Virus record (IMG/VR): IMGVR_UViG_3300032224_000919
Span: 1 to 51,656 of that record
Reading direction: 5' to 3' (one strand)
From: a virus
DNA: 51,656 bases
A model generated the notes under the pieces. That model was not told where the DNA came from, made no database searches, and saw nothing but the letters and a program-made list of their open reading frames with translations. This document shows positions 25,000-40,006 of this stretch, piece after piece; the first letter of the stretch is position 1; each line of letters begins with the position of its first letter. Made by a program: the position numbers and the translations under genes.

Positions 25000-25667
25000 T
25001 TCTCTCCTTGGTTGTGATCACAAGACGTGACTGGACACCAGCCACGACACGTAAAGTTGGGTTTTGGATTCCACATGTCGCTCTCTACGGAAGCCTGAAG
25101 TTGCCCAACATCTGATACCCAGCTACCCCACAGTTCATCTTGTGAGTCAGCCAAGTAAGCAGTCTTTATAAAGTCATCAGCAAACAAAAACATCAAGCCC
25201 GCTTTAACCTTCTTTACTTCTGGGAAGTGTTTAAATATTGCAAGGGACACAATCTCAAGTTGTTTGAGTTCGGCAAACTTGCTCGACTTGCCCGTCTTAT
25301 AGTCCACAGTCAGGGCAGTATCCCCTTGCAGGATGATGATGTCGGCCACGCCACGCCACCATACGTTCTTGTCAAAGAACCCGCATGGCTTTAACTCAGC
25401 GGTCAAGCCAAGTTTGTTCTCGCAAAGTTTCTCCCCGGGCATATCTTTCAACACCTTCAAAGCTGGCTCTATGTGGTTGTATTTCTCAGGAATAGGGCGA
25501 CCTTTACCAACGTATTCTTCAGCTATCTTATGAATCTCGTTACCAAAAATAATAGCTTCGCCCAACGGCTCTTTGATATCCTTCGCGACTTTGAGGTGGT
25601 AGTACTTCTTGGGGCACTGCTGGTACAACGCTAAACTGCTGTACGACCAAGTGATAGGTTTTGTCAT
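24996..25667 (-). CDS. PD-(D/E)XK nuclease, Cas4/AddB-like with probable Fe-S cluster
   Basis: This 223-residue protein starts with TWSYSSLALYQQCPKKYYH, the typical AddB/Cas4/RecB-nuclease opening. It carries the catalytic core ADIIILQGDTALTVDYKTGK (D, then DYKTGK) and QLEIVSLAIF. Four cysteines, C18, C207, C211 and C216 (TCRGWCPVTSC), have the one-plus-three layout that binds a 4Fe-4S cluster in Cas4 and AddB. It is probably a 5'-3' exonuclease for recombination or DNA end processing. It lies in the replication operon next to DNA polymerase and overlaps both neighbours by 4 bases. No CRISPR array or cas1/cas2 is present, so this is not adaptation machinery. Confidence 0.85.
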   Translation of the reverse strand: MTKPITWSYSSLALYQQCPKKYYHLKVAKDIKEPLGEAIIFGNEIHKIAEEYVGKGRPIPEKYNHIEPALKVLKDMPGEKLCENKLGLTAELKPCGFFDKNVWWRGVADIIILQGDTALTVDYKTGKSSKFAELKQLEIVSLAIFKHFPEVKKVKAGLMFLFADDFIKTAYLADSQDELWGSWVSDVGQLQASVESDMWNPKPNFTCRGWCPVTSCDHNQGEK

Positions 25668-25942
25668 TTAGGTTCCTCTGTTAAAAATTCAAGCCAATCT
25701 TTGATGTGCATAAGTTCTTTCGATTCTTCTTTCTTCATGTAGTTGGAAAATTGAAACTTGCGGTACTTAAACTGCTCCACGGAGGTGATGAAATCAAACT
25801 GTTTAAGTAAGCCATACGCCCATGCAGTTGATACGCCGTATTGTTTGGCGATCTCCACAACTGGAACGCCATCGTTGTACAGCTTGCCAACTTCCATGAT
25901 GCGTTTGATGCTCTTCATGTGTGACTCTCTAGCAGTCGCCAT
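25664..25942 (-). CDS. Small HTH protein (92 or 84 aa)
   Basis: Two starts are possible: ATG at 25942, inside the polymerase stop region with GAGGAAC before it, or ATG at 25918. The core KLYNDGVPVVEIAKQYGVST, then WAYGLLKQFDF is a helix-turn-helix of the transposase or Hin-like type (VxxIAxxxGVSxxxxYxxLK). The C-terminal part is helical and charged. It lies between polymerase and nuclease in the operon. It may be a transcriptional regulator or a polymerase accessory protein. Confidence 0.65.
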   Translation of the reverse strand: MATARESHMKSIKRIMEVGKLYNDGVPVVEIAKQYGVSTAWAYGLLKQFDFITSVEQFKYRKFQFSNYMKKEESKELMHIKDWLEFLTEEPK

Positions 25943-28495: not shown

Positions 28496-28524
28496 AATAT
28501 AGGGGGTACTTTAGACTTTGTCAA
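28496..28524 (-). promoter_or_regulatory. Sigma70 promoter for the polymerase operon
   Basis: On the minus strand TTGACA (28524-28519), a 17-base spacer and TATATT (28501-28496). The bases after the -35 (AAGTCTA) match the primase-operon promoter at 20501-20529. It lies just downstream of palindrome copy 1 and a terminator and drives the VRR-NUC/polymerase genes. Confidence 0.87.
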
Positions 28525-28555: not shown

Positions 28556-28584
28556 GAACATACCAACACCGTGTTGGTTTGTTC
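28556..28584. repeat. Palindrome copy 1 (29 bp)
   Basis: Arms GAACATACCAAC and GTTGGTTTGTTC flank ACCGT. It lies between a leftward terminator and the leftward polymerase-operon promoter, about 32 bases upstream of the -35 box. One T-T mismatch interrupts the arms at the sixth position. Confidence 0.9.
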
Positions 28585-28588
28585 AGGC

Positions 28589-28615
28589 AAAAAAAGACCC
28601 GCACATAGGCGGGTC
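28589..28615 (-). terminator. Rho-independent terminator of the accessory-region transcript
   Basis: GACCCGC (28596-28602) and GCGGGTC (28609-28615) form a 7-bp stem with a 6-base loop. On the minus strand it is followed by seven T (28595-28589). It lies 20 bases after the stop of the gene at 28636-29502 and separates the accessory transcript from the polymerase operon. Confidence 0.9.
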
Positions 28616-28635
28616 AAGGGGAAGGTAACTAAAGA

Positions 28636-29502
28636 TTACGTTACTATCATGAAGTTCCTATCATTATACCTGTAACCTACGTCACGCACAAGTTCGTCGT
28701 CTTGCATTAGCTGTAGCACAGCGATACGCTCTTGCCATGCTTGAGGTAGATTTGCGTATTCAACTGTCATGATTACATCATGCTCGTCTCTGAATACATA
28801 ATGCCCATCTTTCTCAGCAACGACCATCGTCTTCTTGTTGTCGACCAACATGCCAAAGTCGGTAGCTAGTTCGTACTCGCCAATCGCTTTCTCAAACTGG
28901 GTAGAGTCAAAGGTTTCTTTGATCTGCTTGTTGATCTGATCGGGCACGGGTAGGTTACGCACTACACAGTACGCCCACTTCTGTAGGTATACGTTGTCTT
29001 TGATAAGCATCCGATTCACGATCGGCTTGCGTAGCGTTTGCAAAGCATTGCGTAGATGGGATTCCACCGCATCAATGGCCTTGGTCAAGAACTCGGTGTT
29101 GTCCATACGGACGAACGACTTCTTAACTTTCCGCATAGCAATGTCCAGCTTCTCTGTTCTGGTTATGTTCTGCCCGCCACGGGAGGTCTCGATGCGCCAC
29201 GACTTGATCTCATACAACGGCTTGTACGAATTGCGTCTGTAGCCTGAGTCGACGGAGATCTGCCCAAGCATCTCACCTTCCTCTCGTACGATGATAGTGC
29301 GCGTGAAGGAAAACCCATACGGTGCTTTACCTGCGGGGTCGTCATACTTGAAGCCTATCGCTCTGCTCTGCTGGGAGTCCTTGTTGGTGTTGGTTGTGAA
29401 AGTCCACTTCGGATTGTTGAGCGCGAGCTTGTCCACCAGTACCTTGAGGTGCGGGTCGATCAGCCTGTCTGCCGGTAGTCTTATGTTTGCAAAGTTACTC
29501 AT
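28636..29502 (-). CDS. Large unknown protein of the AAA/VWA cassette (288 aa)
   Basis: ATG at 29502 lies 4 bases after the preceding stop and has GGTGA upstream. A longer frame to 29541 overlaps the DUF3150-like gene. The product has the pattern PKWTFTTNTNKDSQQSRAIG, GQISVDSGYRRNSYKPLYEI, WRIETSRGG in the first half, then charged helices and a C-terminal beta part. I do not recognise a family. It is the last gene of the accessory transcript, directly before the terminator. Being placed immediately after the DUF3150-like gene suggests a partner or substrate of the AAA/VWA proteins, which is inference only. Confidence 0.75.
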   Translation of the reverse strand: MSNFANIRLPADRLIDPHLKVLVDKLALNNPKWTFTTNTNKDSQQSRAIGFKYDDPAGKAPYGFSFTRTIIVREEGEMLGQISVDSGYRRNSYKPLYEIKSWRIETSRGGQNITRTEKLDIAMRKVKKSFVRMDNTEFLTKAIDAVESHLRNALQTLRKPIVNRMLIKDNVYLQKWAYCVVRNLPVPDQINKQIKETFDSTQFEKAIGEYELATDFGMLVDNKKTMVVAEKDGHYVFRDEHDVIMTVEYANLPQAWQERIAVLQLMQDDELVRDVGYRYNDRNFMIVT

Positions 29503-29506
29503 GTGT

Positions 29507-30379
29507 TCACCATTGAAATTTGTTGAGGATATCGTCGACACTGTGCTTCAACTCAGCGCGTGCGCTAGGTATCTTGCGTAAGTCTTCAGCGTCGATGCCG
29601 TTGATTGCTTTCTCTAGCATACGTCGAGCTTCTTCAAGCGCTGGGTCTTTCATCACGTTAAGTACGGACAACAGACCACATAGTTCTAAGGCGTTGTTGA
29701 CCAGACTATCGCGGAAGATATTACGCTTGCCATCTTCCTTGTCAGTCAGGGTCTCACTCATCCGTGCCAACATCTTGTGCAGTCTGTCCCACGGATCACG
29801 CATAGCCTCGGTCATCTTGTTGTTGAACATCTTGTCGTATTGCTCGGCCAAGTCTTGGCGTACACGTTCCTCGCATTGGATACGGAAGTCACCCTTCTCT
29901 GGAACTGGAAGGAAGTTGAACTCAAACTTAAAGCGACGAGGTAGAGAAGCCGCATCGGGGAACTCTGACGCATCAAAGTACTTGCCGAGCTTGAAGGCTT
30001 GAGCGCTAACCAACGTCGGGTAAGCTAGTATGAAGTCATTGACTAGCGAGTTGAAGTTGGATTCCATAGTACCGAGCTGTTCACGATAGCTGAAGAAGTT
30101 ATCCATCGGGAGTAAGCCGATACCCTTCATCCACGGCAGGGTCTGCGTACCATTCCACGCACGACACTTAGCCGCGTACTTCTCTATCTTGTTAAGATGA
30201 TCACTGCCCGCCATGAGGTACTTGTACACAGAGCTTGCGTCTTGGTCAGCTTCTTTGGCTGTGTTCAGGTCAGCAGTGGTTTCTTTGTCACGCTTGCGTG
30301 CTGTCCATGTACTGATGCGTAGTTCGACAAGCATAGCCATTGAGGCCAGCGAAATTGAGGGAGATTCAAAAGTTTGCAT
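29507..30379 (-). CDS. DUF3150-like protein (290 aa)
   Basis: The true start is ATG at 30379, after TTGGAAACCAA. The open frame extends to 30502 but crosses palindrome copy 2 and the end of the previous gene. The sequence pattern (MLVELRISTWTARKRDKET, then KCRAWNGTQTLPWMKGIGLL, FFSYREQLGTMESNFNSLV, DFILAYPTL, FKFEFNFLPVP, long helical end) matches what I remember of DUF3150. That is a helical family of unknown function found in phages and conjugative elements, often near CobS-like AAA and CobT/VWA-like genes. Here it lies in the same transcript as both. The C-terminal half is coiled-coil-like. Confidence 0.7.
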   Translation of the reverse strand: MQTFESPSISLASMAMLVELRISTWTARKRDKETTADLNTAKEADQDASSVYKYLMAGSDHLNKIEKYAAKCRAWNGTQTLPWMKGIGLLPMDNFFSYREQLGTMESNFNSLVNDFILAYPTLVSAQAFKLGKYFDASEFPDAASLPRRFKFEFNFLPVPEKGDFRIQCEERVRQDLAEQYDKMFNNKMTEAMRDPWDRLHKMLARMSETLTDKEDGKRNIFRDSLVNNALELCGLLSVLNVMKDPALEEARRMLEKAINGIDAEDLRKIPSARAELKHSVDDILNKFQW

Positions 30380-30407
30380 TTGGTTTCCAATATAGGTTGA
30401 TTGACAC

Positions 30408-30436
30408 GAACATACCAACGAGATGTTGGTTTGTTC
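30408..30436. repeat. Palindrome copy 2 (29 bp), upstream of the DUF3150-like gene
   Basis: GAACATACCAAC (30408-30419), GAGAT, GTTGGTTTGTTC (30425-30436). It ends 28 bases before the DUF3150-like start codon and overlaps the stop codon of the preceding gene (TGA, 30437-30435). Confidence 0.9.
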
Positions 30437-31478
30437 AAAGTAACTCCGTGAATACATGGATGTACTCGGAGTTCTGCTTGGTTGGGATTTCGCCCGCCCC
30501 AAGTGGCTCTTTCACAAAGCACTCGTCAAAGTGCAAGTGCAAAATGATTTGTTTAAGATACTCAGTGGCAGATTTGCGATCAAGCCAAACAGACCACTCG
30601 CGAACACCATTGGTGTTTTTATACCCACGCTCGCCCTGCTGTCGCATGAGTACGTAGTACGCAGTCACCCAGTTCTCACTAAGTGGGCCTGTGACCCAGT
30701 CCATAAGCAACTCGCAGCCTTTCGTATGGAAGCCATATTTCGAACCTCTCCATTGGCCTTGCCCGCCATGCGGTAAGTGATCACGGTTACGGCTGATCTG
30801 CCATCGGTTGGGTGCATTTAGGTTATCGATATTATTTGTCCAAGTCTCAAACCCTTTGATGGACATGAGACCAAGCTCTTTGTACAAAGCATCCATCGCG
30901 GCATCCATCTCGTCAATAGGATCTTTCGGGGTGTTGTCGATCGACTGCACCAACTCCATCCATTCGAGGAACGGCTCGCAATCTTTGAGATACTTCTTCT
31001 CCATGCCACGCTTCTTTCTGATCGCGTACTCGACTGGAACATCAATCAATTCGTAAGTCTCAGGAGATACTCGTTTGAATTTCAAACTTTTATCTTTCCC
31101 ATCTTCCAATAGATATGAGTTGTCCCTATGCAGTACGACCACACGGCCTCTGTTCCATGTGAAATGGATACCCACGGGCGCAAACTGTTGGATGTTGTCA
31201 ATGACATAAGCTGAGTAGTACCGAGGAGGGCGTATCTCTAGCGTATCGTCCGGTCTCCAGATCACCAATGGATCACCATAGAAATTCAAGTGAACAGTGT
31301 TTTCATCCGGCATGGATATGCTCGCCCTGTTGTGCTTCTTGCGATCGCCAAGCGGTACTGCGCCCTTGCTCTGCTTGCTGTTGATTGGCTTAGTGTTCTT
31401 AAACTTCTCAACATACGCTGCGAATGAATCACGCATGATGACCCCGCCTGTGTTGTAGTATCTTCCGTATCCCATCAC
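30435..31478 (-). CDS. Large unknown protein of the AAA/VWA cassette (347 aa)
   Basis: The start is GTG at 31478, or the ATG next to it at 31475. GAAAGGAAG lies upstream, and the GTG overlaps the stop of the 53-residue RHH gene. The N-terminal part has a beta-rich stretch (TVHLNFYGDPLVIWRPDDTL, RPPRYYSAYVIDNIQQFAP, RVVVLHRDNSYLL). The middle is helical. The C-terminal 100 residues carry PHGGQGQWRGSKYGFHTKG and SVWLDRKSATEYLKQIILH. I do not recognise a family. Its stop codon lies inside palindrome copy 2. Confidence 0.75.
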   Translation of the reverse strand: MMGYGRYYNTGGVIMRDSFAAYVEKFKNTKPINSKQSKGAVPLGDRKKHNRASISMPDENTVHLNFYGDPLVIWRPDDTLEIRPPRYYSAYVIDNIQQFAPVGIHFTWNRGRVVVLHRDNSYLLEDGKDKSLKFKRVSPETYELIDVPVEYAIRKKRGMEKKYLKDCEPFLEWMELVQSIDNTPKDPIDEMDAAMDALYKELGLMSIKGFETWTNNIDNLNAPNRWQISRNRDHLPHGGQGQWRGSKYGFHTKGCELLMDWVTGPLSENWVTAYYVLMRQQGERGYKNTNGVREWSVWLDRKSATEYLKQIILHLHFDECFVKEPLGAGEIPTKQNSEYIHVFTELL

Positions 31479-31636
31479 ATCTTCCTTTCAATAAAGAGGG
31501 AAATTAGGTGGCGAACCACCTGTCCGTTTGTAGGCTCAAAGCCCATCACTACCTCGAGTTGTTCTCTCACTGTCTGCAAGAGATCGAAGGTTTCTTTGTT
31601 AAGGGTAATTGAGTACCCAGTTTTTGAATTGCTCAT
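31475..31636 (-). CDS. Ribbon-helix-helix protein (53 aa), candidate regulator
   Basis: ATG at 31636 overlaps the stop of the upstream gene as ATGA, and its own TGA overlaps the next gene's GTG. The frame is coupled on both sides. The 53-residue sequence has the RHH layout: strand GYSITLN, helix A KETFDLLQTVREQLEVVMG, then PTNGQVVRHLISLFIERK as helix B. RHH dimers bind short palindromic operators. It is therefore a good candidate to bind the repeated palindromes in this region, although that is a hypothesis. It is too short to be called by length alone. Confidence 0.72.
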   Translation of the reverse strand: MSNSKTGYSITLNKETFDLLQTVREQLEVVMGFEPTNGQVVRHLISLFIERKM

Positions 31637-31890
31637 CGCTTGTTTTTCTCCGCAAGAACTTTCATGTTGGCATCAATCTCCAACTGCAATACGCCTGTCA
31701 TCGGGGCAATGGTTGCCGCCTTTGGGTCAGGCTCGCCTATGACAGAGTTGTTTTTGTTATCGTGCCCTTGACCTAGCCATGTCGTAGTAATGCGTGACGC
31801 ACCACACAACGTCTTAGAAATATTCAAGGCCTCGTTGATGTCCAACAAAAATCTCTGATCCCCAATAAAAAGAATCACTTGATCATCCAT
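31633..31890 (-). CDS. Hypothetical protein (85 aa)
   Basis: ATG at 31890 is preceded by TTGGAGGTAAAGAAT and overlaps the upstream stop. A TTG five codons earlier is less likely. The product (DDQVILFIGDQRFLLDINEA, then CGASRITTTWLGQGHDN) has two beta strands and a helix at the N-terminus. No family is recognised. It lies between the VWA gene and the 347-residue unknown gene. Confidence 0.65.
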   Translation of the reverse strand: MDDQVILFIGDQRFLLDINEALNISKTLCGASRITTTWLGQGHDNKNNSVIGEPDPKAATIAPMTGVLQLEIDANMKVLAEKNKR

Positions 31891-32320
31891 ATTCTTTACC
31901 TCCAAGAACTACAAACCAACCCAATAAGGGGCTATCGTGTTTACATTTCACTGCATACGGGAAACCTTCTTCCAGTAAGTGCAGTAACAGATCGGGGAAC
32001 AGAAACCTAGTGGTCGGGTCTCCGTCCAACTCCCCCGCTTCATTGATCATCCAACGATGAAGTTTCTCCAGACCATCAGGGTTCTTCAAGTCAAGCGGAG
32101 TAACTCCAGCGTTGTGCATCGCACCCATCACCTCAACTTGATGACCGAAACCCTCCATGAATTCGACATCTGCGTCGATACCTTGGATGAGTCTCATGCC
32201 CGCTGGGTTCAAGCGTGCGTCCAACCATATGCAGTCAGTGTTCACTCCGATAGAGCGATGCCACCCCTCGCATACGATCAGCGGGTCAGCATCAGTCAGC
32301 AATGATGAGTCTTTGTCCAT
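31883..32320 (-). CDS. Hypothetical protein (145 aa)
   Basis: ATG at 32320 lies inside the last codons of the VWA gene (28-base overlap), with GAGG five bases upstream. The open frame extends to 32416 but has no better ribosome site. The sequence (PLIVCEGWHRSIGVNTDCIW, PAGMRLIQGIDADVEFMEGF, FLFPDLLLHLLEEGFPYAVK) is a mixed alpha/beta domain. No family is recognised. Tight overlap with the VWA gene suggests it is made with that protein. Confidence 0.65.
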   Translation of the reverse strand: MDKDSSLLTDADPLIVCEGWHRSIGVNTDCIWLDARLNPAGMRLIQGIDADVEFMEGFGHQVEVMGAMHNAGVTPLDLKNPDGLEKLHRWMINEAGELDGDPTTRFLFPDLLLHLLEEGFPYAVKCKHDSPLLGWFVVLGGKEYG

Positions 32321-33587
32321 TGGGGACCTCGTACTTATCGTTACCGATGATGCACCACAGAGTAGGTTGTGTGATCGCAGACCACTTACCCTTGTTAGTG
32401 TGCATGTAACCATCACTCAGCATGATGATCGCGTCGGGCTTCAACTGCTTCTCAAGAATCAGATCAACCACAACGTCAGGGTTCGTACCACCACCGCCTT
32501 TGGGATTGGTGCGGTGCACAATGTCCTTGGTAGAACCTGTGAAGATTTCATGCGCTTGAACCTCTGCGTCCCAGTACACGATGTCGATGCGGTCGATGCC
32601 AACTGACTTGACCAAGCCATTCATCTCGGAGAGAAAGTCGGTAAGTAACTGCCCTTCCACAGAACCAGATGTGTCCATACCCAGCAGTAGATACTTCATC
32701 CGCTTGCCGAGAATGCTTGGCAGGATGATGTCTTGCCACAAGAAATTCTTGTGAGCCTTACGCCATGAGATAGAGTCTCGATCTTTGATGTTGTTGCGGG
32801 TAAAGCGTTTCAACACATCGCGCCAGTTGACCTTGGGGTTGAGAAGCTCGCCGATCTCGCGTGGTGTCTTACCGCCAAACTTACCGGCATAGATGCCACC
32901 TTGGCGTATCGCTTGCTCGATCTCTTGGGTGAGTTGCTTCTTCTCTTCCTCGGGCATCTCTTGCGCACCGTCCCAGTCATGAGCATCGAAACCTTCCTTG
33001 TCACCGAACTTACCAACACTTGGTTGGTTTGTTCCGTCCTCACCACCGCTACTTTTGCCTGACCCGTCAACGGGATTCCCGTTGCCTTCCTCGCCACCTT
33101 TGCCACCCTTGCGCTTCTTCATGAGGATGTCGAAGACTTGCTTGGTGTCCATACCACGATAAGCAGGGTCGAGCAAACCATCAAGCTCACCTGTTTCTTT
33201 AGAACGGGGAAACGCGATGAATTCTTCCTCGGGGTCCATGTCAACCAACTGGATGTTGATCACATAGTCACAAGCCGCGCCCGCTATGGCATGGTTGATC
33301 TCGTCCAACGCTTTCCACGTTGTCAGGTGTCGATAGCACTTGTGCATGTTCTCGTGCATGACAAGAAACGCCAACTCTTTGTCGGTCAATGAGTCAACGA
33401 ATGCTCTGCCATACCCCGCGTCACGACCGTTCGTATACGCTGTTACAGGTCGTTCGTCTATCGTTGTAGACCCGACCATGAACAAGCCCGCGAAGAACGC
33501 AAACTTCTGGTTCCTCATCAAGCTCACATGGACTAGCTCAATCCGCTTTTCAGCGGGTAGCTTACTTTTCACGACTACTAAGCTCAT
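32292..33587 (-). CDS. Zincin-like metallopeptidase plus VWA (MIDAS) protein, DUF2201/CobT-like
   Basis: This 431-residue protein has two recognisable parts. The N-terminal half carries a zincin motif, FLVMHENMHKCYRHL (H78, E79, H82), as in the putative metallopeptidase domain DUF2201_N. A charged Gly/Lys/Glu-rich linker spans about residues 155-215. The C-terminal half is a VWA domain with an intact metal-ion site: LLGMDTSGSVEG (D305-S309), then GGGGTNPDVVVDLI and IIMLSDGY. VWA proteins of this kind act as adaptors for MoxR/CobS-type AAA+ ATPases, and such an ATPase is encoded at 35284-36363. One palindrome copy (33006-33034) lies inside the linker coding sequence. The start overlaps the upstream stop as ATGA. 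Confidence 0.88.
   Translation of the reverse strand: MSLVVVKSKLPAEKRIELVHVSLMRNQKFAFFAGLFMVGSTTIDERPVTAYTNGRDAGYGRAFVDSLTDKELAFLVMHENMHKCYRHLTTWKALDEINHAIAGAACDYVINIQLVDMDPEEEFIAFPRSKETGELDGLLDPAYRGMDTKQVFDILMKKRKGGKGGEEGNGNPVDGSGKSSGGEDGTNQPSVGKFGDKEGFDAHDWDGAQEMPEEEKKQLTQEIEQAIRQGGIYAGKFGGKTPREIGELLNPKVNWRDVLKRFTRNNIKDRDSISWRKAHKNFLWQDIILPSILGKRMKYLLLGMDTSGSVEGQLLTDFLSEMNGLVKSVGIDRIDIVYWDAEVQAHEIFTGSTKDIVHRTNPKGGGGTNPDVVVDLILEKQLKPDAIIMLSDGYMHTNKGKWSAITQPTLWCIIGNDKYEVPNGQRLIIAD
33006..33034. repeat. Palindrome copy 3 (29 bp), inside the VWA gene linker
   Basis: GAACTTACCAAC (33006-33017), ACTTG, GTTGGTTTGTTC (33023-33034). It encodes the linker segment GTNQPSVGKFG between the zincin and VWA parts. 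One arm has an extra change (T at position 5). Confidence 0.8.
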
Positions 33588-33772
33588 GATTGCTGTTCCT
33601 TTCTAAATTGTGCGAAGTCTTCTACGATGTGGTCACGCAATTCTTTGTTTTCGAGAAGCTCTCGAATAAACATGTCAGCGTGTTGTCTGCCCTGCTTGTA
33701 CTTGAACGCATAGCCCGTAGCTAATATTGCCCAGCAAAACAAAGCGATCTCCGTTATTGATACTTCAATCAT
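33584..33772 (-). CDS. Small membrane protein (62 aa)
   Basis: ATG at 33772 overlaps the upstream stop region and has GGGGCAGAG before it. One membrane helix (ITEIALFCWAILATGYAF) is followed by a charged helix (HADMFIRELLENKELRDHIV). It is directly coupled (ATGA) to the zincin-VWA gene and may tether or modulate that protein at the inner membrane, which is inference from order only. Confidence 0.65.
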   Translation of the reverse strand: MIEVSITEIALFCWAILATGYAFKYKQGRQHADMFIRELLENKELRDHIVEDFAQFRKEQQS

Positions 33773-34022
33773 TCTCTGCCCCCATATATGCTCCGTTGAA
33801 AAATGTGGGCGAACCAAAAGCTCGCACCATGCCTACCGCTCTGCGGTGTTTGTCTTTGTTGTTACTGAACGAAGCAAGCTCACGTTCATACTTCCATATC
33901 TCCAGACTGCTTGCTTTCTCACGCTTGTAAGATTGCACCCAATTACTGAAAGCTTTCTGTATGGTCATTCGCCCGCCATGCGGCATCCACGGATTTCTCC
34001 GCGCATAAAACTTATGTCTCAT
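33765..34022 (-). CDS. Hypothetical basic protein (85 aa)
   Basis: ATG at 34022 has a strong GGAGG upstream and overlaps the stop of the 55-residue gene. The product (YARRNPWMPHGGRMTIQKAF, WVQSYKREKASSLEIWKYER, then RRAVGMVRAFGSPTFFNGAY) is rich in Arg, Lys and Trp. No family is recognised. A nucleic-acid-binding role is possible. Confidence 0.65.
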   Translation of the reverse strand: MRHKFYARRNPWMPHGGRMTIQKAFSNWVQSYKREKASSLEIWKYERELASFSNNKDKHRRAVGMVRAFGSPTFFNGAYMGAEND

Positions 34023-34179
34023 TTGGGTATCCTCCTGTTGCTTTGATTTCAAGAATCCATATCTCTAAGAGATTGGCTTCCTCGTTTAGGTCAAGCATGC
34101 GCAAGTGATGAGCAAGCTGCATGCCGGTTTGATAAACCGATTCAACGGTTTGTTCTCGGGGGGTCTCTGGTATCGTCAC
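34012..34179 (-). CDS. Hypothetical small protein (55 aa), GTG start
   Basis: The frame starts on GTG at 34179, after TAGGGAGAGACC, and ends at TAA 34012, overlapping the next start. The product has two helices (EQTVESVYQTGMQLAHHLRM, NEEANLLEIWILEIKATGG). Bases 34131-34156 inside it look like a degenerate copy of the regional palindrome (GAACAAACC on the minus strand, with a poor second arm). The start context and overlap support a real gene. Confidence 0.6.
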   Translation of the reverse strand: MTIPETPREQTVESVYQTGMQLAHHLRMLDLNEEANLLEIWILEIKATGGYPNET

Positions 34180-34188
34180 GGTCTCTCC

Positions 34189-34443
34189 CTAGTTGGGTTT
34201 ATCGGTGTCAAGCTCGACCATGTGCAACGCCTGCATGTCGTACACGTTAGAAACGGTATTCATCAAATCATCCTTGTCTATATCAAACTCAATGGTCATG
34301 CTGCAGAGCATATTGACAAGTACGTTCCAGACCATAGCTTTAGTCAACTCCGAAGCATTGAATAGTGCCCCAATGGCTTTCTGCACCGCACGTATACGCG
34401 CTTCTTCAATGTCATCAGCTCGTCTAACATTTTCAATACTCAT
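34189..34443 (-). CDS. Hypothetical protein (84 aa)
   Basis: ATGA overlap with the upstream gene. A helical product (EEARIRAVQKAIGALF, SELTKAMVWNVLVNMLCSMT) with an acidic C-terminal part (EFDIDKDDLMNTV). No family is recognised. It is one of the small genes between the AAA and VWA genes. Confidence 0.6.
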   Translation of the reverse strand: MSIENVRRADDIEEARIRAVQKAIGALFNASELTKAMVWNVLVNMLCSMTIEFDIDKDDLMNTVSNVYDMQALHMVELDTDKPN

Positions 34444-34682
34444 TTTGTTCTCCTGATAAATTTACCTTCCAAATCAAACTCGTAGGCAGGAAACTGCTTT
34501 TCCAACTGCTTGGCCATGCGAGTCATGATTGAAGTGGCTTGCAACACCAGACCGCGAGCCTCAAGTTTTTGGCCCTCTGTTGAATTTTTGCGGTAGCACA
34601 AAGTGTGGACATGATCCTGCATACGTTTGTACGTTGCAACCATGCCGCGCCACGCCAATTTTGATTCTTCCAATGTCGTCAT
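34440..34682 (-). CDS. Hypothetical helical protein (80 aa)
   Basis: ATG at 34682 follows AGGAGAAAAAGC. A longer frame to 34709 crosses palindrome copy 4 and is unlikely. The product is two helices (LAWRGMVATYKRMQDHVHTL, LVLQATSIMTRMAKQLEKQF) and a short strand (YEFDLEGKFIRR). No family is recognised. Its start overlaps the stop of the 52-residue gene. Confidence 0.65.
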   Translation of the reverse strand: MTTLEESKLAWRGMVATYKRMQDHVHTLCYRKNSTEGQKLEARGLVLQATSIMTRMAKQLEKQFPAYEFDLEGKFIRRTK

Positions 34683-34837
34683 GCTTTTTCTCCTGTTGTT
34701 GGTGAACATTCCAACACCGTGTTGGTTTGTTCCTCGTCTACTACCACACTAATGATGCGCACGCCATCGAAGATCTCGACGATCTCGTAGATTGCGCCCG
34801 CTCTGTCTAACGCATCGTAAAGTTCTGATGGTGTCAT
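34679..34837 (-). CDS. Small protein whose C-terminus is encoded by a palindrome copy (52 aa)
   Basis: ATG at 34837 has AAGGTGG upstream. The frame runs to TGA at 34679, overlapping the next ATG as ATGA. The N-terminal 35 residues (TPSELYDALDRAGAIYEIVE, GVRIISVVVDEE) look like an ordinary folded domain. The last 17 residues, EQTNTVLECSPTTGEKA, include those encoded by palindrome copy 4 (34704-34732). This is consistent with a palindrome inserted near the end of an older gene. Confidence 0.6.
   Translation of the reverse strand: MTPSELYDALDRAGAIYEIVEIFDGVRIISVVVDEEQTNTVLECSPTTGEKA
34704..34732. repeat. Palindrome copy 4 (29 bp), inside a small gene
   Basis: GAACATTCCAAC (34704-34715), ACCGT, GTTGGTTTGTTC (34721-34732). 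It lies 22 bases upstream of the start codon at 34682 and inside the 52-residue reading frame. Its central five bases equal those of copy 1. Confidence 0.88.
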
Positions 34838-34838
34838 G

Positions 34839-35057
34839 TCATACCACCTTGTTCAGTTTGTCTAACACATACTCACGCATCAATGCGTAAGCCTCGTCCT
34901 TGCGACCCTCGCGGTCGTGTTGCCATATCTTGGTCAGTGTTTCGCGGTCGTCAAAGGTAACCCCGTCTGTACCTCGTCGTTCCAACTCATCCACCAAGTC
35001 CTCGGTGTCAAAGTCGTCTAAGTCAATTTCTATCTCTGTTGTTATGTACGGCATCAC
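34839..35057 (-). CDS. Acidic hypothetical protein (72 aa)
   Basis: It starts at GTG 35057 or ATG 35054, overlapping the upstream stop. The sequence TTEIEIDLDDFDTEDLVDEL followed by ERRG and a helical end is strongly acidic and resembles small phage proteins I have met without function. The acidic ladder could mimic DNA, but there is no direct evidence. Confidence 0.6.
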   Translation of the reverse strand: MMPYITTEIEIDLDDFDTEDLVDELERRGTDGVTFDDRETLTKIWQHDREGRKDEAYALMREYVLDKLNKVV

Positions 35058-35281
35058 TCATACTCCCGTTCTATATGTTCAATTGTTGCAAGCAGATACC
35101 CCTGCCAAAAGGCATCGGAAAAGAAGTTAATCAGAAAGAGAGCCGCCTCTCCGTCCTCTGACCCTTCCTTGATCTTGCCCTTGTGTGCCGCAAGAAATGC
35201 TTGCTTGCCCTCGGCCATTACCCGCTCGCGCTCGCTGTTAATAACGGCCCAAGCTTCGTCTGTGATTTCGATGTCGCTCAT
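35054..35281 (-). CDS. Hypothetical protein (75 aa)
   Basis: It begins 2 bases after the stop of the AAA+ gene and overlaps the next start. The product is helical (EAWAVINSERERVMAEGKQA) with a hydrophobic patch (AALFLINFFSDAFWQGYLLA). No family is recognised. It is co-transcribed with the ATPase. Confidence 0.6.
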   Translation of the reverse strand: MSDIEITDEAWAVINSERERVMAEGKQAFLAAHKGKIKEGSEDGEAALFLINFFSDAFWQGYLLATIEHIEREYE

Positions 35282-35283
35282 GA

Positions 35284-36363
35284 TTAACCTTTCAATCCGG
35301 CAAACATGTACTGGTTCTCACGCGCCCATGTAACGAACGAGGGGTGAGACATGACCCATGCTTTCTTAACAGGAATCTCAAGGATCTGGTTGATAAACAC
35401 AGCCTGAGTTTCTTTGGGCATACGCTTGAGATAGCGCATCCATGTGGCAAATGTCTCACGGGTAGAGACAGCCATAGCCTTGAACGCCAAGATACATTGA
35501 GCCGCTGGGCTTGTCGGTATAGGAGTCGTATCAGGACTGGAGAGGATAGTTTCAGTCATGGGTAACTGATCGGACAACGAGATGTATGCTTGCAAATCCC
35601 GCGATGCTGATCTACCGATCGTGCCGTCGAGTGCCGCGATCAACGCATTCTCTGATATGTTGTGACGGACATTGATCCAATGCGATGCCTTGTGCGCAGT
35701 ACGGGGACAGAAGAACGCTTCCTGCGATGAGTCAGTCGGCTGATAGATGTACGTATTCTCTTTCTGCCCGCCATCCAAGTACGAAGCCATGCAATGCGGG
35801 TATTCCTTAACCCACGCTTGCATCTCGGGCGCAACATTGTTGTTCGCAGCCCAGACCAACCACTCGGTCGCTGTTGGTTTCATGTAGTTAATCCATGTCT
35901 CACGGCTACGGGTATGAGCCTTGACATGGTCACCCACATTGTCCGAACCTAAGTTGCCCGTCGTAAAGACAAGGGTCTCAGGGTGCAACTCATACTCGCC
36001 TTGTCTGCGCTCATGCAGTAGCGGGTGTAGGGTGTTGCGCACATAGTCATCAGTCTTTGTCCACTCGTCGATCATGATGACGAGGGGTTCGCCTGTGTGC
36101 AAACCATAACGCTCTGCGGGATAAAAGTCCAAGGTGCGAGTCGTATGGTTAGGGATTGGCATACCGGACTGGCCGACATCGGTGTTGGGGCCATCGATGT
36201 AGATGCCTTTGAACCCTGTGCGTTTGATGATCTCTTTGTGCATGGCAGTCTTACCAACACCGGGTTCGCCAGTAAGGTGCACTGCGTTCTCGCCAGCATT
36301 GAGGATGAGGTCGACGGTCTCTGCAAAGTTGAGACGACGGACAAATGAAATTTCTCGAGACAT
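35284..36363 (-). CDS. MoxR/CobS-like AAA+ ATPase (359 aa)
   Basis: This is a complete AAA+ module of the MoxR/CobS type. Walker A is LTGEPGVGKTAMHKEI (G32-T39). Walker B is VIMIDEWTK (D99, E100), and sensor-1 follows in TLVFTTGNLGSDN. HPLLHERRQGEYELHPETL precedes sensor 1, as in MoxR proteins that load VWA partners. C-terminal helices follow (QCILAFKAMAVSTRETFATW). Such ATPases use ATP hydrolysis to remodel or activate a target together with a VWA protein (RavA-ViaA, CobS-CobT, NorQ-NorD). A VWA partner is encoded at 32292-33587. RBS is AAGGAAATCAAA. Palindrome copy 5 ends 31 bases upstream of the start. Confidence 0.9.
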   Translation of the reverse strand: MSREISFVRRLNFAETVDLILNAGENAVHLTGEPGVGKTAMHKEIIKRTGFKGIYIDGPNTDVGQSGMPIPNHTTRTLDFYPAERYGLHTGEPLVIMIDEWTKTDDYVRNTLHPLLHERRQGEYELHPETLVFTTGNLGSDNVGDHVKAHTRSRETWINYMKPTATEWLVWAANNNVAPEMQAWVKEYPHCMASYLDGGQKENTYIYQPTDSSQEAFFCPRTAHKASHWINVRHNISENALIAALDGTIGRSASRDLQAYISLSDQLPMTETILSSPDTTPIPTSPAAQCILAFKAMAVSTRETFATWMRYLKRMPKETQAVFINQILEIPVKKAWVMSHPSFVTWARENQYMFAGLKG

Positions 36364-36393
36364 TTTGATTTCCTTGATAAGAAAGATTTATAA

Positions 36394-36423
36394 GAACAAA
36401 CCAACATCGGTGTTGGTTAGTTC
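36394..36423. repeat. Palindrome copy 5 (30 bp), upstream of the AAA+ gene
   Basis: GAACAAACCAAC (36394-36405), ATCGGT, GTTGGTTAGTTC (36412-36423). On the minus strand the second arm is GAACTAACC, whose TAA is the stop codon of the zinc-finger gene upstream. It lies 31 bases before the ATPase start. Confidence 0.88.
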
Positions 36424-36722
36424 GACGAACGAGGGTTTTTCTGATTCGTATCCATCAGAACCTGCGGGGCAGCTTCGGGAGTTACGAGCATGTACGGCCC
36501 CTTGCCGTACGTTTGCACCACGCACCAAGATGCGCGATCAGCGACTGCGGCTTCTTGCCCGCAGTGTAGACAAAGTCTGTAGCCAATGGCCCAGCGCTCT
36601 GCATGGACGTCATCCCCGCATAGGGTGCATGACTTCCAGTCGAAACGATCAGGGTTGCAACCCTGTTGTCGATCAACGACAGGGTTATGATCGTCATCCA
36701 ATTCTTTAGAATATGTAGTCAC
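36417..36722 (-). CDS. Zinc-ribbon protein, DksA/TraR-like finger (101 aa)
   Basis: GTG at 36722 overlaps the upstream stop. The zinc site CTLCGDDVHAERWAIGYRLC, then LHCG, has the C-x2-C...C-x2-C spacing with ER...G between the pairs, as in DksA/TraR zinc fingers. The following VVQTYGKGPYMLVTPEAA segment is common in short phage zinc-finger proteins. It may modulate host RNA polymerase, which is unproven. The first 25 codons contain three CAGGGTT/AACCCTG units forming small inverted repeats (36649-36690). Confidence 0.7.
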   Translation of the reverse strand: MTTYSKELDDDHNPVVDRQQGCNPDRFDWKSCTLCGDDVHAERWAIGYRLCLHCGQEAAVADRASWCVVQTYGKGPYMLVTPEAAPQVLMDTNQKNPRSSN

Positions 36723-36916
36723 AGTATGTTGTAGCCTTTGAGGTAGCGCATCTGCTCGAGGTCGTGTTCAAACTCGACGATGGTCAAACCGTAGTGTTCG
36801 TTGTCACAGTCAAAGAATTCATGAGCACCGTCAATATCCATGTCTGGGTCAACGGTGTTGGTTGAAAGATAGTGTGAGTACCGTAAGGCATCCCACTTTG
36901 TGTCTGTTGTACGCAT
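36719..36916 (-). CDS. Hypothetical protein (65 aa), first gene of the cassette transcript
   Basis: ATG at 36916 follows TTATTGGAGATGCTTC. The acidic, aromatic sequence (DALRYSHYLSTNTVDPDMDI, FFDCDNEHYGLTIVEFEHDL) matches no family I know. It is the first gene after the leftward promoter at 37037-37065 and lies 32 bases after palindrome copy 6. Confidence 0.6.
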   Translation of the reverse strand: MRTTDTKWDALRYSHYLSTNTVDPDMDIDGAHEFFDCDNEHYGLTIVEFEHDLEQMRYLKGYNIL

Positions 36917-36948
36917 GAAGCATCTCCAATAAAGGACTTTGATTTACT

Positions 36949-36978
36949 GAACAAACCAACGGGGATGTTGGTATGTTC
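36949..36978. repeat. Palindrome copy 6 (30 bp), 5' leader of the cassette transcript
   Basis: GAACAAACCAAC (36949-36960), GGGGAT, GTTGGTATGTTC (36967-36978). It lies in the leader of the leftward transcript that starts near 37030, 32 bases upstream of the first start codon. Confidence 0.9.
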
Positions 36979-37018
36979 AGCGCGGGCTTTTAGATGCGGT
37001 GTCGTCGTCATCACTCAC

Positions 37019-37040
37019 CAATGTATCTAAAGATACATTG
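37019..37040. promoter_or_regulatory. Perfect 22-bp palindromic operator
   Basis: CAATGTATCT (37019-37028), AA, AGATACATTG (37031-37040) are exact reverse complements. It overlaps the -10 box (37037-37042) and the expected start point of the leftward promoter, the typical place for a repressor operator. Confidence 0.82.
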
Positions 37041-37065
37041 TACCACAAATTAATTCATTTGTCAA
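37037..37065 (-). promoter_or_regulatory. Sigma70 promoter of the accessory cassette
   Basis: Minus strand: TTGACA (37065-37060), 17 bases, TACAAT (37042-37037). It points at the genes from 36916 downward, including the AAA+ and VWA genes, and is overlapped by the 22-bp palindrome. Confidence 0.87.
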
Positions 37066-37099
37066 TACCTAGTTCGTGTTTTTAGACCCATAGTTCCCA

Positions 37100-37765
37100 C
37101 TATTCAGAATTTCGTTCCTGCTTTGCTTTGCGTTGCTCAGATATGTGAGCAATCATCTTGTCGATACCGAACTCAATATCCTCCCACGATTCGAGCGGGG
37201 TTTCATCCTTGGGTTCTGGCTTTGGTTCCTCACGTAGCTTGATTGTCAGGACGGGCGGGCTGTCTTCGCTCGCCATGCGAATCTCTTTCCTCTTTGGAAT
37301 GGCAAAGCCCTTGGTCTTGAGAATCCCATCGGTGTCGTACCCTGCCAGCGATGCACTGTCCATGAGCATCTTTATATGTAGGGGGTTCTTTGGGCGCATC
37401 TCAATCAACTCTTCGTCGGGCGGTGCGATCAGGTGGCGAGAGGATTCTTGCTCAGGGAGTAGTGCGTTGGGTTGACCGGACGCGAATCGTTTAACCCGAT
37501 ACATCTTGGCTTCTGTGTAATGATATGGGTTGACGCACCACTTAACGCCACAGGTGTTGAGCAAGCGCGGGCCAGCGGGCGGGAATCGACACATGGTAAA
37601 CAAGATGCGCACGATCACATTGGTGTTGAACTTGCCCGCTAAGGGGGAATTGGGCGATAAGATGGGAACAGCGCATGAAGACTTCGGCCAGATGTAGCAG
37701 AGGTTCTTGATCTCGCAGTTGTCCAAGAGGTCGTCTGCGTTGTGGTACTTTGCGGTTCGGGTCAT
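37100..37765 (-). CDS. HNH-like zinc-binding protein (221 aa)
   Basis: ATG at 37765 follows AAAGGAAAAATC. The N-terminal half has LLNTCGVKWCVNPYHYTEAK, which has the C-x4-C-VNP-x-H layout of the zinc knuckle in phage HNH-type homing nucleases. The catalytic His of a full HNH is not obvious, so it may be a degenerate nuclease or a DNA-binding relative. The C-terminal half is charged and Pro-rich (PPVLTIKLREEPKPEPKDET), ending in a helix. It has its own promoter and lies beside the noncoding region. Confidence 0.6.
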   Translation of the reverse strand: MTRTAKYHNADDLLDNCEIKNLCYIWPKSSCAVPILSPNSPLAGKFNTNVIVRILFTMCRFPPAGPRLLNTCGVKWCVNPYHYTEAKMYRVKRFASGQPNALLPEQESSRHLIAPPDEELIEMRPKNPLHIKMLMDSASLAGYDTDGILKTKGFAIPKRKEIRMASEDSPPVLTIKLREEPKPEPKDETPLESWEDIEFGIDKMIAHISEQRKAKQERNSE

Positions 37766-37814
37766 GATTTTTCCTTTCGTTGACTTCCATACCATATATT
37801 ATATATGCGTCGCG

Positions 37815-37842
37815 ACTATACCATATGATTTTAGAAAGTCAA
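37815..37842 (-). promoter_or_regulatory. Sigma70-like promoter for the HNH-like gene
   Basis: Minus strand: TTGACT (37842-37837), 16 bases, TATAGT (37820-37815). It is located 50 bases upstream of the ATG at 37765. Confidence 0.72.
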
Positions 37843-37875
37843 CAGGTACGCGGGTTTTTCTGGATAAGATATAAG

Positions 37876-38026
37876 ATATAGTGTGTTGTTCCTGAAATGG
37901 GGATAGAGCAAAGCAGAAAAAGGGCGAGCGTGGTCAATCACACCATTCTCAACTTTTTCTATGTTTGGGGAGGGAATTCCTAGACCCGCTTTATACTATG
38001 TCATTTTCTGGAACAACACATTATAT
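37876..38026. other. Long nested inverted repeat in noncoding DNA (possible origin or structured RNA)
   Basis: Arms 37876-37897 and 38005-38026 pair over 22 bases with two or so mismatches; the core is GTGTTGTTCC and GGAACAACAC. Inside lie AGAAAAAG (37915-37922) and CTTTTTCT (37953-37960), then TGGT and ACCA. The DNA next to it (38020-38050) is almost pure A/T. There is no convincing reading frame. Confidence 0.65.
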
Positions 38027-38325
38027 TATATATTATATTATTATTATTATAGAGAGAGAAGCTAGGAAATTCGGGCGTTTGCTCTCTTTCGCGGGGTTGC
38101 CATAAGATATAGTTAGGACAGATATATGATATAATGTATTCTTATGACGGGGTAGCGGGCTAGGGCGATCGTAGCTTTTTAGAACTATCTGGTGCGTTTC
38201 GTGGTGTCTGGCGATGCTTCGTTCGCTGTATGGATATAGTTGTGTGTGCAATGCAACATGAGCAACGCCCGCCTTACACTAGGCGAGCGGGTCAAGCGGG
38301 CGGCGTTAGACATAAAAGTAATAAT
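38027..38325. other. Noncoding stretch, AT-rich then GC-rich
   Basis: This stretch is A/T only up to about 38050. It then has ATAAGATATAG-like units (also near 37870) and, at 38266-38302, a GC hairpin (CGCCCGC and GCGGGCG arms). Frames of 60-97 codons here lack ribosome sites and have unusual composition, so I call no gene. Confidence 0.5.
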
Positions 38326-38354
38326 GAACAAACCAACAATGCGTTGGTATGTTC
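38326..38354. repeat. Palindrome copy 7 (29 bp), in noncoding DNA
   Basis: GAACAAACCAAC (38326-38337), AATGC, GTTGGTATGTTC (38343-38354). It is the only copy with no convincing minus-strand gene just downstream. The nearest gene in that direction starts at 37765. Confidence 0.9.
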
Positions 38355-38384
38355 GCAATGCCCGCAATGCAATGCGCGACGGGG

Positions 38385-38535
38385 CTACCGCGTTCCTACC
38401 GGTGACTGGTATCTAGCGATACGGGCGAGACGGGCGCGAACACCCCGCCAGCGTGGGGAACTCCGCCCGCTCGGGACTACCGCGTTACTACAACATCGTG
38501 GCCTACCGCGTTACTACAACTAGGTGACTGGCATC
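38385..38535. repeat. Direct repeats in GC-rich noncoding DNA
   Basis: CTACCGCGTT occurs at 38385, 38477 and 38503. The last two continue as CTACCGCGTTACTACAAC (18 of 18). GGTGACTGGTATC (38401-38413) and GGTGACTGGCATC (38523-38535) follow the first and third copies. They look like iteron-type or duplicated noncoding units. Confidence 0.75.
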
Positions 38536-38573
38536 AGCCGCGCCCGCCCGACCGCGACGGGCCGAACGGGCAC

Positions 38574-38598
38574 AAAAAAAATGGGGGCCGAAGCCCCC
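38574..38598 (-). terminator. Rho-independent terminator with UUCG loop
   Basis: GGGGGC (38583-38588), CGAA, GCCCCC (38593-38598). On the minus strand the loop reads TTCG, and the stem is followed by A plus eight T (to 38574). It ends the transcript of the 55-residue gene. Confidence 0.92.
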
Positions 38599-38604
38599 AA
38601 AGAT

Positions 38605-38772
38605 TTACTCAACTCGAATCACGGTTTTAATTTCCCATGACTCATCCCGCCATGTAGTCCATTCGGAATTATCGGATTCAGCCGCTTTTTCAAAGGCTTT
38701 TTCTTCCGACTCCGCTTCAATTTCCAAAAGCTCGAGCACCACGCGCTCAGCTACAACTTGATACTTTTTCAT
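38605..38772 (-). CDS. Acidic small protein (55 aa)
   Basis: ATG at 38772 follows TTGGAGTGTTTT. The sequence is KKYQVVAERVVLELLEIEAE, then EKAFEKAAESDNSEW and WEIKTVIRVE, a beta-alpha-beta pattern rich in Glu. It resembles the small phage and bacterial 'DpnD/PcfM-like' strand-helix proteins, but I cannot confirm that. It is bracketed by terminators on both sides. Confidence 0.65.
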   Translation of the reverse strand: MKKYQVVAERVVLELLEIEAESEEKAFEKAAESDNSEWTTWRDESWEIKTVIRVE

Positions 38773-38786
38773 AAAACACTCCAAAA

Positions 38787-38820
38787 GAAAAAATAGAAAA
38801 ACGGGCGCTGTCACCGCCCG
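38787..38820 (-). terminator. Rho-independent terminator after the 256-aa gene
   Basis: CGGGCG (38802-38807) and CGCCCG (38815-38820) with a 7-base loop. On the minus strand it is followed by a long T-rich run down to 38787. It begins about 9 bases past the stop at 38829. It may be leaky, because the 55-residue gene follows without a clear promoter. Confidence 0.8.
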
Positions 38821-38828
38821 CTCATGGA

Positions 38829-39599
38829 TTAGCCCAAGACCTGCAAAGCAGAGATCAAGCGCTCAAGGGATTCAGCCGAACCGGCCTTCGCCCACTCCGA
38901 AGCCTTCTTACGAAGGGATTCATGAATGACTTTGATGTCAGCTTGCAACTTATCCAGCTCAGGCTTTTCTCTGCGCTCGATTTCCTTGGCAATGGCAGTA
39001 GCTTCGCGCATCGCCTTGACATCGCCCTTGGCAATCAGCTCGGCTTTTTGCTCAAGCAATTCACCGTCAGACTTGCCCGCAAACTTTGCAGCTTCCTCGG
39101 CACGCTTTTTGGCCATGCGCTCAGCGTCGGCGGTTTTGGCCTTCGGGCTTTGCCAGCCGAGAGCACGCAACCGATTGATCTGTCTTTCCCACTGGCGCTC
39201 AGCCGCGTCAGTAGTGGGCGCACCGCAGTCAAAGTATTTGGCAATCGCCCATGACCGGACTTGCAAATACTCAGGGTATGCGATCGGCACAAACACCATG
39301 ACGGGCTTGTTGTCCTTCAGCACCGGTTCACCGGCCATGTCCAACTTGGCAGTGCGAGACTTGACCGACTTGCCGTCGACCGTCTCCCACGCTGTCAGCC
39401 AGTCCAACAGCAAGGCATCGGCTTGTTGCACGATTTCCTCACCGCGTGCGAGCATTTTCTCGCCATTGGAAGTGGACTCGAAGATCTCTTCGAGTGAAGA
39501 CTGAGCTTCGACCAGTGAACGACCCGCGACCATTTCGACCGCAGAACCAATCGCGCTTTGAACGGGCGCGACAACCGTTTGATTGGCTTTGTTTGCCAT
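38829..39599 (-). CDS. Abundant-type early protein of unknown function (256 aa)
   Basis: ATG at 39599 follows TTATTGGAGAAATACATC. The frame open to 39647 crosses palindrome copy 8. The product starts NKANQTVVAPVQSAIGSAVE, has helices with Glu/Gln (LVEAQSSLEEIFESTSNGEK), a central beta part (KDNKPVMVFVPIAYPEYLQV) and a long Ala/Lys/Glu coiled-coil end (DAERMAKKRAEEAAKFAGKS, REKPELDKLQADIKVIHESL). No family is recognised. It is the first gene to the left of the divergent control region and has its own terminator, so it is probably an early, well-expressed protein. Confidence 0.75.
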   Translation of the reverse strand: MANKANQTVVAPVQSAIGSAVEMVAGRSLVEAQSSLEEIFESTSNGEKMLARGEEIVQQADALLLDWLTAWETVDGKSVKSRTAKLDMAGEPVLKDNKPVMVFVPIAYPEYLQVRSWAIAKYFDCGAPTTDAAERQWERQINRLRALGWQSPKAKTADAERMAKKRAEEAAKFAGKSDGELLEQKAELIAKGDVKAMREATAIAKEIERREKPELDKLQADIKVIHESLRKKASEWAKAGSAESLERLISALQVLG

Positions 39600-39636
39600 G
39601 ATGTATTTCTCCAATAAAGAATCGAGCAAAACGCTC

Positions 39637-39666
39637 GAACAAACCAACGAATTTATTGGTTTGTTC
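39637..39666. repeat. Palindrome copy 8 (30 bp), leader of the 256-aa gene
   Basis: GAACAAACCAAC (39637-39648), GAATTT, ATTGGTTTGTTC (39655-39666). It is the only copy whose two outer arms pair fully at the sixth position. It lies 37 bases before the start codon. A small hairpin, CGAGC..GCTCG, follows it at 39623-39637. Confidence 0.88.
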
Positions 39667-40006
39667 AGGTCGCAGGCATCACCCGTGCTTCCATGATTTA
39701 ATTATGACAGAATTACTAATTTAAGGGGAAAACCGCACACCAATCTACAACCAATGTATCCGGTCGACTCAGCCCGCAATGCTAAAGAACAGGCAGAAAA
39801 AAATCGCGAAACTTCCTCCGGCTATACCCCTTCGCAAGAACCAGAAGGAGAACTCGAAGACCCCCACACCCCAAAATTTCGATAAGGGACTCCCCGCATA
39901 CCATCACTGTGTTTTGCCCACCCGATGAGCAAAATTTAAAAGTGGGGGAGGGGGGTATAAAAATTTTGGAGTTCTGCCGGTAGCACTCCACCAGAAACAC
40001 CCCCCG

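Follow-up and report, generated by a model that had tools for sequence, protein, structure and literature searches.

In the uncultured phage of IMG/VR record IMGVR_UViG_3300032224_000919, an early block of 11 kb carries eight near-identical DNA palindromes of 29-30 bp. We refer to the whole stretch analyzed (51,656 nt) as the window. The copies themselves, their conserved positions in related phages, the concerted change of their letters between lineages, the constraint on their half-sites and, within a gene, on the DNA itself, and their terminator and promoter context were all established by computation. Judged from these comparisons, the palindromes are probably DNA operators for a phage-encoded, likely dimeric, sequence-specific DNA-binding protein, dispersed as roadblocks in the manner of the stoperators of cluster A phages and the extended start-associated sequences (ESAS) of cluster K mycobacteriophages.

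Eight palindromes and their conservation in related phages

Each element consists of a 12-bp arm, a spacer of about 5 bp and a second 12-bp arm. The half-site comprises an outer GAAC-type block, 3-4 loosely specified A/T-rich bases, and an inner CCAAC-type block. All eight copies listed in an earlier, sequence-only reading of the window are present, with 0-1 mismatch to the consensus GAACANACCAAC-N5/6-GTTGGTNTGTTC over 22 scored arm positions. Its claim that the window holds no further full copy was borne out as well, the best non-overlapping place elsewhere in the 51,656 bases having 5/22 mismatches, and so was the restriction to the early region, all copies lying within 28.5-39.7 kb. Dyad discovery in the early region gave a score of 256 vs 46-51 on two Markov shuffles. 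Imperfection is a consistent feature of the copies, chiefly at arm positions 5-7, and this pattern is not noise. Their coordinates and surroundings are as follows:

Palindrome 1, 39637..39666, spacer 6 bp: separates a promoter-like sequence from the first early gene, whose ATG at 39599 follows after 37 nt
Palindrome 2, 38326..38354, spacer 5 bp: in a long non-coding stretch flanked by genes 38605-38772 and 37100-37765
Palindrome 3, 36949..36978, spacer 6 bp: predicted sigma70 start about 67 bp upstream, ATG at 36916 32 nt downstream
Palindrome 4, 36394..36423, spacer 6 bp: overlaps the stop codon of gene 36417-36722, 30 nt before the MoxR-like gene
Palindrome 5, 34704..34732, spacer 5 bp: 21 nt before gene 34440-34682
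Palindrome 6, 33006..33034, spacer 5 bp: within the VWA gene, in a Gly-rich linker
Palindrome 7, 30408..30436, spacer 5 bp: overlaps the stop codon of gene 30435-31475, 28 nt before the DUF3150 gene
Palindrome 8, 28556..28584, spacer 5 bp: between a terminator and the promoter of the nuclease/polymerase operon

In agreement with the placement first described, five copies (39637, 36949, 36394, 34704, and 30408) are followed after 21-37 nt by a minus-strand start codon, two (30408 and 36394) overlap the stop codon of the preceding gene, and the copy at 28556 lies by a promoter. In the four distal copies (28556-34732) the strict GAACAAACCAAC arm is the 5' one on the sense strand, and in the promoter-proximal copies it is the 3' one; close relatives show this switch of side too.

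A single occurrence among 84,980 bacterial and archaeal genomes shows that the motif is not a host repeat. The sole exact palindrome in this collection, in Acinetobacter rudis (L123 4246-4274), may be due to chance or represent a host-related trace. A search for close cultured relatives among 50,697 phages gave no nucleotide match to the early region, and we found no earlier description of these palindromes in open-licence papers.

Using the VWA protein and the MoxR-like ATPase of the block, we gathered 78 related contigs and ran a de novo dyad search (expectation-maximization, EM, with a 12-bp half-site) on them and on Markov shuffles. This motif search, which the sequence-only reading had recommended, recovered dyads above the shuffled background in the window and in 48 of the 78 contigs, with 5-11 copies per genome and EM totals of mostly 120-300 in palindrome contigs vs 0-68 on the shuffles. 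Another 16 contigs were found through g257, the first gene of the block, alone. Seven close IMG/VR relatives have the same palindromes at the same sites, with fixed arms and free loops. Within a genome the half-site is uniform in nearly all copies, whereas it differs between lineages, reading GAACAAACCAAC in the window clade and GAACAAANCGAC, GAACAAATCGAA, GGAATAATCGAC, GGACTCATCGAC, GGAAATACCCTT, and also GGAAATACCCT in others.

Across dozens of related phages, spanning 67-98% MoxR identity, the palindrome has been retained at most of the same positions while its letters changed everywhere at once. Positions relative to the MoxR start are conserved, and nearly all genomes covering the spot of window palindrome 4 have a copy 50-74 bp before this start. 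A palindrome in lineage-specific form is also present at the spot orthologous to palindrome 1. When 16 further relatives were searched with their own lineage motif, the copies formed one cluster in 15, with reversed-pattern controls at zero; the exception, L092, had no match to the pattern applied, and each single record is a fragment. Within the core clade we found no relative that has the genes but no palindromes; neither such a loss nor a common host repeat, the observations named beforehand as speaking against a specific phage element, was encountered. Such concerted change of letters is characteristic of a switchboard whose reader, a putative phage protein, evolves fast.

Two alternatives bear directly on these data. 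A small mobile palindrome, similar to repetitive extragenic palindromes (REP) or miniature inverted-repeat transposable elements (MITE), would likewise be repeated, palindromic, and mainly intergenic. However, the positions are conserved over the whole range of MoxR identity, the arms but not the loops are homogenized, arm sequence is swapped in nearly all copies at once between lineages, and the element is essentially absent from bacterial genomes. We give this proposal of the sequence-only reading next to no credence. Target sites of a recombinase or nuclease, serving for example module exchange or a homing-type enzyme, are generally similar in size, with inverted 12-bp half-sites and a short spacer, and the distances between copies do vary among relatives. 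Yet the copies stay at fixed positions, and 13 long records, which may be incomplete, contain no match to tyrosine or serine recombinases (PF00589, PF00239). Moreover, the copies could not recombine by spacer homology because spacers differ within one genome. Such target sites are highly improbable.

Among more distant MoxR/VWA phages, L055, L057, L058, L059, and L061 carry other repeated dyads, and some show none in the de novo search. The other dyads, seen in L058, L059, L061, L064, L055, L057, and L046, include TTTAGGG-4-CCCTAAA, a ACAAATTC-type, and TGTTATAA-4-TTATAACA.

DNA half-sites, RNA pairing and genomic context

Arm covariation was analyzed in 330 copies from 43 genomes, the null being arms shuffled among copies of the same genome. 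Double arm changes occurred in the number expected from independent arms, and the single-arm changes at inner positions (14 at position 9 and 26 at position 11) gave G-U pairs in 0 of 40 cases. Arm positions 5-7 are less complementary than in the within-genome shuffles (149 vs 185, 104 vs 152, and 168 vs 200; 5-6 standard deviations), and perfect arms were seen 3 times vs 28.2 ± 4.1 expected; because the genomes are related, these sigmas overstate independence, yet the letters involved differ among lineages. The copy in the VWA gene, palindrome 6, is kept in about 38 genomes and in two reading frames (GTNQPSVGKF and EQTDSGSDSS), showing that the DNA and not the peptide is conserved. Palindrome 8 comes directly behind a near-invariant terminator and ahead of a promoter, so that little transcript is expected there. 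Together, covariation, the two-frame VWA copy, and the terminator context favor recognition of two inverted DNA half-sites. Of the operator for a phage regulator that had been suggested from the window, recognition of DNA half-sites and lineage-specific co-variation thus stand; binding and regulation are the part that we infer.

Alternatively, the palindromes might work in mRNA as hairpins with an outer stem, an internal loop, and an inner stem, through which an RNA-binding protein or nuclease would control translation or decay. The strands do fold as hairpins, many copies end shortly before a start codon (see below), single-arm changes at arm position 2 are 22 G-U vs 0 A-C, although from few clades, and compensation at position 4 is slightly above expectation. 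This is countered by inner-stem changes that are uncompensated and lack G-U pairs, by the avoidance of perfect pairing, by the free loops, and by the location of palindrome 8 behind a strong terminator. An obligate internal loop could account for the middle positions but not for the inner-stem pattern. We consider the RNA hairpin, also raised in the sequence-only reading, quite unlikely, and the parallel drawn there to T4-type promoter stem-loops fails because the stem is not kept by compensatory or G-U changes. Hairpin promoters of the N4 type for a virion RNA polymerase were rejected as well, since the 2460-aa protein matches large polyvalent/DarB-like families and not RNA polymerase, and the loops are not conserved.

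For context statistics, genes were called by a simple script. Copies are intergenic in 64% of cases vs 12% of random positions. The commonest distance from a copy to the next start codon is 20-40 nt (125 of 328 copies), but with genes packed this tightly the peak may simply reflect where room remains ahead of the ribosome-binding site. Relative to the palindrome center, predicted sigma70 starts show an excess 40-80 bp upstream and 80-100 bp downstream and are rare over the center itself, much of this pattern coming from two or three orthologous site classes. This rarity suggests that the element is not a promoter-overlapping operator, and a roadblock is the simplest transcriptional reading of the promoter placement. 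At palindrome 8, the window and all 18 relatives displayed share the arrangement of terminator, palindrome, and a TTGACw-17-TAyAtT promoter. The features concerned in the window are:

28496..28524, minus strand: predicted sigma70-like promoter, TTGACA-17-TATATT, downstream of palindrome 8
28589..28615, minus strand: intrinsic terminator, GACCCGC...GCGGGTC-T7, directly upstream of palindrome 8 and near-invariant in relatives
32292..33587, minus strand: DUF2201 metallopeptidase-like/VWA protein gene carrying palindrome 6
35284..36363, minus strand: MoxR-like AAA ATPase, the anchor gene

A phage protein might instead bind the palindromes as architectural sites and loop, condense, segregate, replicate, or package the DNA, with no part in transcription control. 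The spacing of copies is indeed more regular than random (coefficient of variation 0.40 vs 0.83; roughly one copy per 1-2 kb), the copy within the VWA gene is retained in all relatives examined, and palindrome 2 lies in a repeat-containing, A/T-rich non-coding stretch. Nevertheless, confinement of the copies to one early block and their non-random placement relative to predicted promoters, starts, and the terminator speak against this explanation, and we regard it as unlikely. The long non-coding stretch itself (window 37800-38580) contains GTAGTAACGCGGTAG repeats and a very A/T-rich segment and is a possible replication origin.

A candidate reader and the proposed control of the early block

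A change that reaches nearly all half-sites uniformly requires a factor with lineage-dependent specificity. We tested 29 protein families for divergence that tracks the motif, allowing for MoxR divergence. Three proteins of the block are relevant here:

38829..39599, minus strand: g257, first gene of the block, of no known family or fold; candidate trans-acting protein
37100..37765, minus strand: fast-evolving protein with a C-x4-CVNPxH motif and conserved Cys/His residues; alternative candidate, weaker than g257
31475..31636, minus strand: 53-aa protein, read by eye as ribbon-helix-helix (RHH); rejected as specificity factor

Motif divergence is best tracked by g257 (partial r 0.59 overall, 0.80 within the set of close genomes; in a partial Mantel test r 0.58, p 0.0002). 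Between L023 and L025, MoxR differs by 8%, the DUF3150 protein by 3%, and the RHH-like protein by 4%, whereas g257 differs by 61%, and CCGAC in the motif is replaced by TCGAA. The gene follows the first palindrome and is present in 38 contigs, which are all that cover its slot; all 38 carry palindromes, and the palindrome contigs lacking g257 all end before the slot. In 16 of the 16 further contigs found through g257, a palindrome of the expected class precedes the gene. On this correlative basis we tentatively propose g257 as the ligand of the palindromes. Upstream of g257 (window 39667-39760), a TGTGCGG/TGTGGAA-TTTTCCCC block common to the relatives stands before a TATA-like -10 and is possibly an unusual early promoter.

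Other proteins fit less well. The correlation of the 37100-37765 protein with the motif is weak overall, and it has no Pfam or fold match. The small RHH protein, which the sequence-only reading had named for DNA-binding tests, is a poor candidate as reader: it is 96% identical in L023 and L025 despite their different palindromes, and its divergence tracks the motif weakly. As specificity factors we also rejected two helix-turn-helix (HTH) proteins, one (25664-25942) found in contigs of 8 relatives and the other (24451-24999) a poor tracker of the motif.

We infer a protein ligand, its encoding by the phage, the roadblock mechanism, and its timing from these patterns, and picture them as follows. 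Each operator would present two inverted 12-bp half-sites about 5 bp apart, and about eight operators, mostly at gene junctions, would span the early accessory operon. The bound protein would act as roadblock or repressor downstream of predicted promoters and inside the operon, as well as just behind the terminator that divides the early block from the replication operon. In this way the early block would be shut down as a unit after the early infection phase, and the position of g257 behind the first operator would allow autoregulation. We prefer early shut-off in the lytic cycle over lysogenic repression because no integrase or resolvase was found, HTH_3 proteins are few (in 4 of the 13 long records), and one pattern-based scan of GTDB genomes found no MoxR-related prophage. 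Some cluster A phages maintain themselves without integrase. A wider picture is conceivable but rather doubtful: a large clade of uncultured, apparently non-integrating phages might control an early accessory block by dispersed dimer operators read by g257 as a DNA-binding family of unknown fold, its specificity having switched repeatedly with nearly all of the at least 16 half-sites following each time.

Several observations weigh against operators read by g257. The spacer is 5 bp in 298 copies, 6 bp in 27, and 4 bp in 5, which a rigid dimer would not easily tolerate, so that the ligand needs some flexibility. The G-U bias at arm position 2 and the many copies 20-40 nt before start codons are as an RNA element might show them, and a role in lysogeny lacks support, as 13 genomes gave no integrase match. 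g257 has no recognizable DNA-binding domain and no known fold or domain, its confident structure model (pLDDT 85) giving no PDB match. Furthermore, the protein is mosaic: L037 and L027 have a common motif but differ in the N-terminal half of g257, their C-terminal parts being 75% identical. Its correlation with the motif is not independent, because both follow phylogeny, and several of the 16 additional contigs are near-duplicates.

If the palindromes are operators, the repeat from one metagenomic contig opens a natural co-evolution experiment with dozens of genomes, hundreds of operators, and at least five specificities. A long-standing problem, the joint change of a regulator with all its sites, thereby becomes directly testable, and covariation may reveal the regulator.

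Comparison with known repeat systems

The closest known analogue, nearest in form, is the ESAS of cluster K mycobacteriophages, and the analogy to start-associated repeats made in the sequence-only reading was apt. ESAS have 17-bp arms with promoter hexamers inside and are usually tied to a 13-bp start-associated sequence (SAS) at the start codon (PMC3203893, PMC11373665). Both elements are imperfect inverted repeats whose spacer varies, both occur several times per genome with a genome-specific half-site consensus, and both lie in the non-structural half upstream of particular genes and are conserved with the gene family. In contrast to ESAS, the arms here are 12 bp, predicted promoters are absent or rare over the element, one copy lies within a coding sequence, and the lineages have diverged far more in sequence. 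An ESAS-type 13-bp SAS, GGGATAGGAGCCC, was not noticed between palindromes and starts, where no dedicated scan was made.

In their proposed working, the palindromes would be nearest to the stoperators of cluster A phages (L5/Bxb1). These are 13-bp asymmetric sites, mostly in one orientation and about 30 per genome, bound in temperate phages by a monomeric repressor with two DNA-binding domains that halts elongation, and their motif differs between phages, diverging with the repressor (PMC6550527, PMC9283540). Dispersed sites mostly off promoters and a phage-specific motif are common to both systems, whereas our elements are 29-30 bp dyads, 5-11 per genome, in a single block, with no integrase found in 13 records. 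We file the element under neither ESAS nor stoperators because it shares some defining features with each and lacks others. Dispersed operators are known chiefly from temperate phages; the comparison suggests that phages without sign of lysogeny may use them too.

A named phage isolate with a comparable repeat is the Planktothrix phage Pag-Yong1 (L121, L179; OL906435.1), which combines a MoxR-like ATPase/VWA cluster with about 40 dispersed dyads GGTTCANNNTGAACC (42 places with at most 2 mismatches vs 1.2 expected), many in very short intergenic gaps. Unlike those of the window, its dyads have a 3-bp spacer and are genome-wide, and it has no g257 homologue.

Finally, SPBRE of the Bacillus phage SPbeta is a 15-bp intergenic repeat whose role was long unknown until an unexpected master repressor, MrpR, was shown to use it as its operator (PMC10516654). 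SPbeta differs in being temperate, and its repressor has a tyrosine-recombinase fold, of which no example was found here. As a repeated element in the intergenic regions of one phage, SPBRE would nevertheless be the nearest parallel in history, a repeat whose reader proved to be a protein that nobody had expected.

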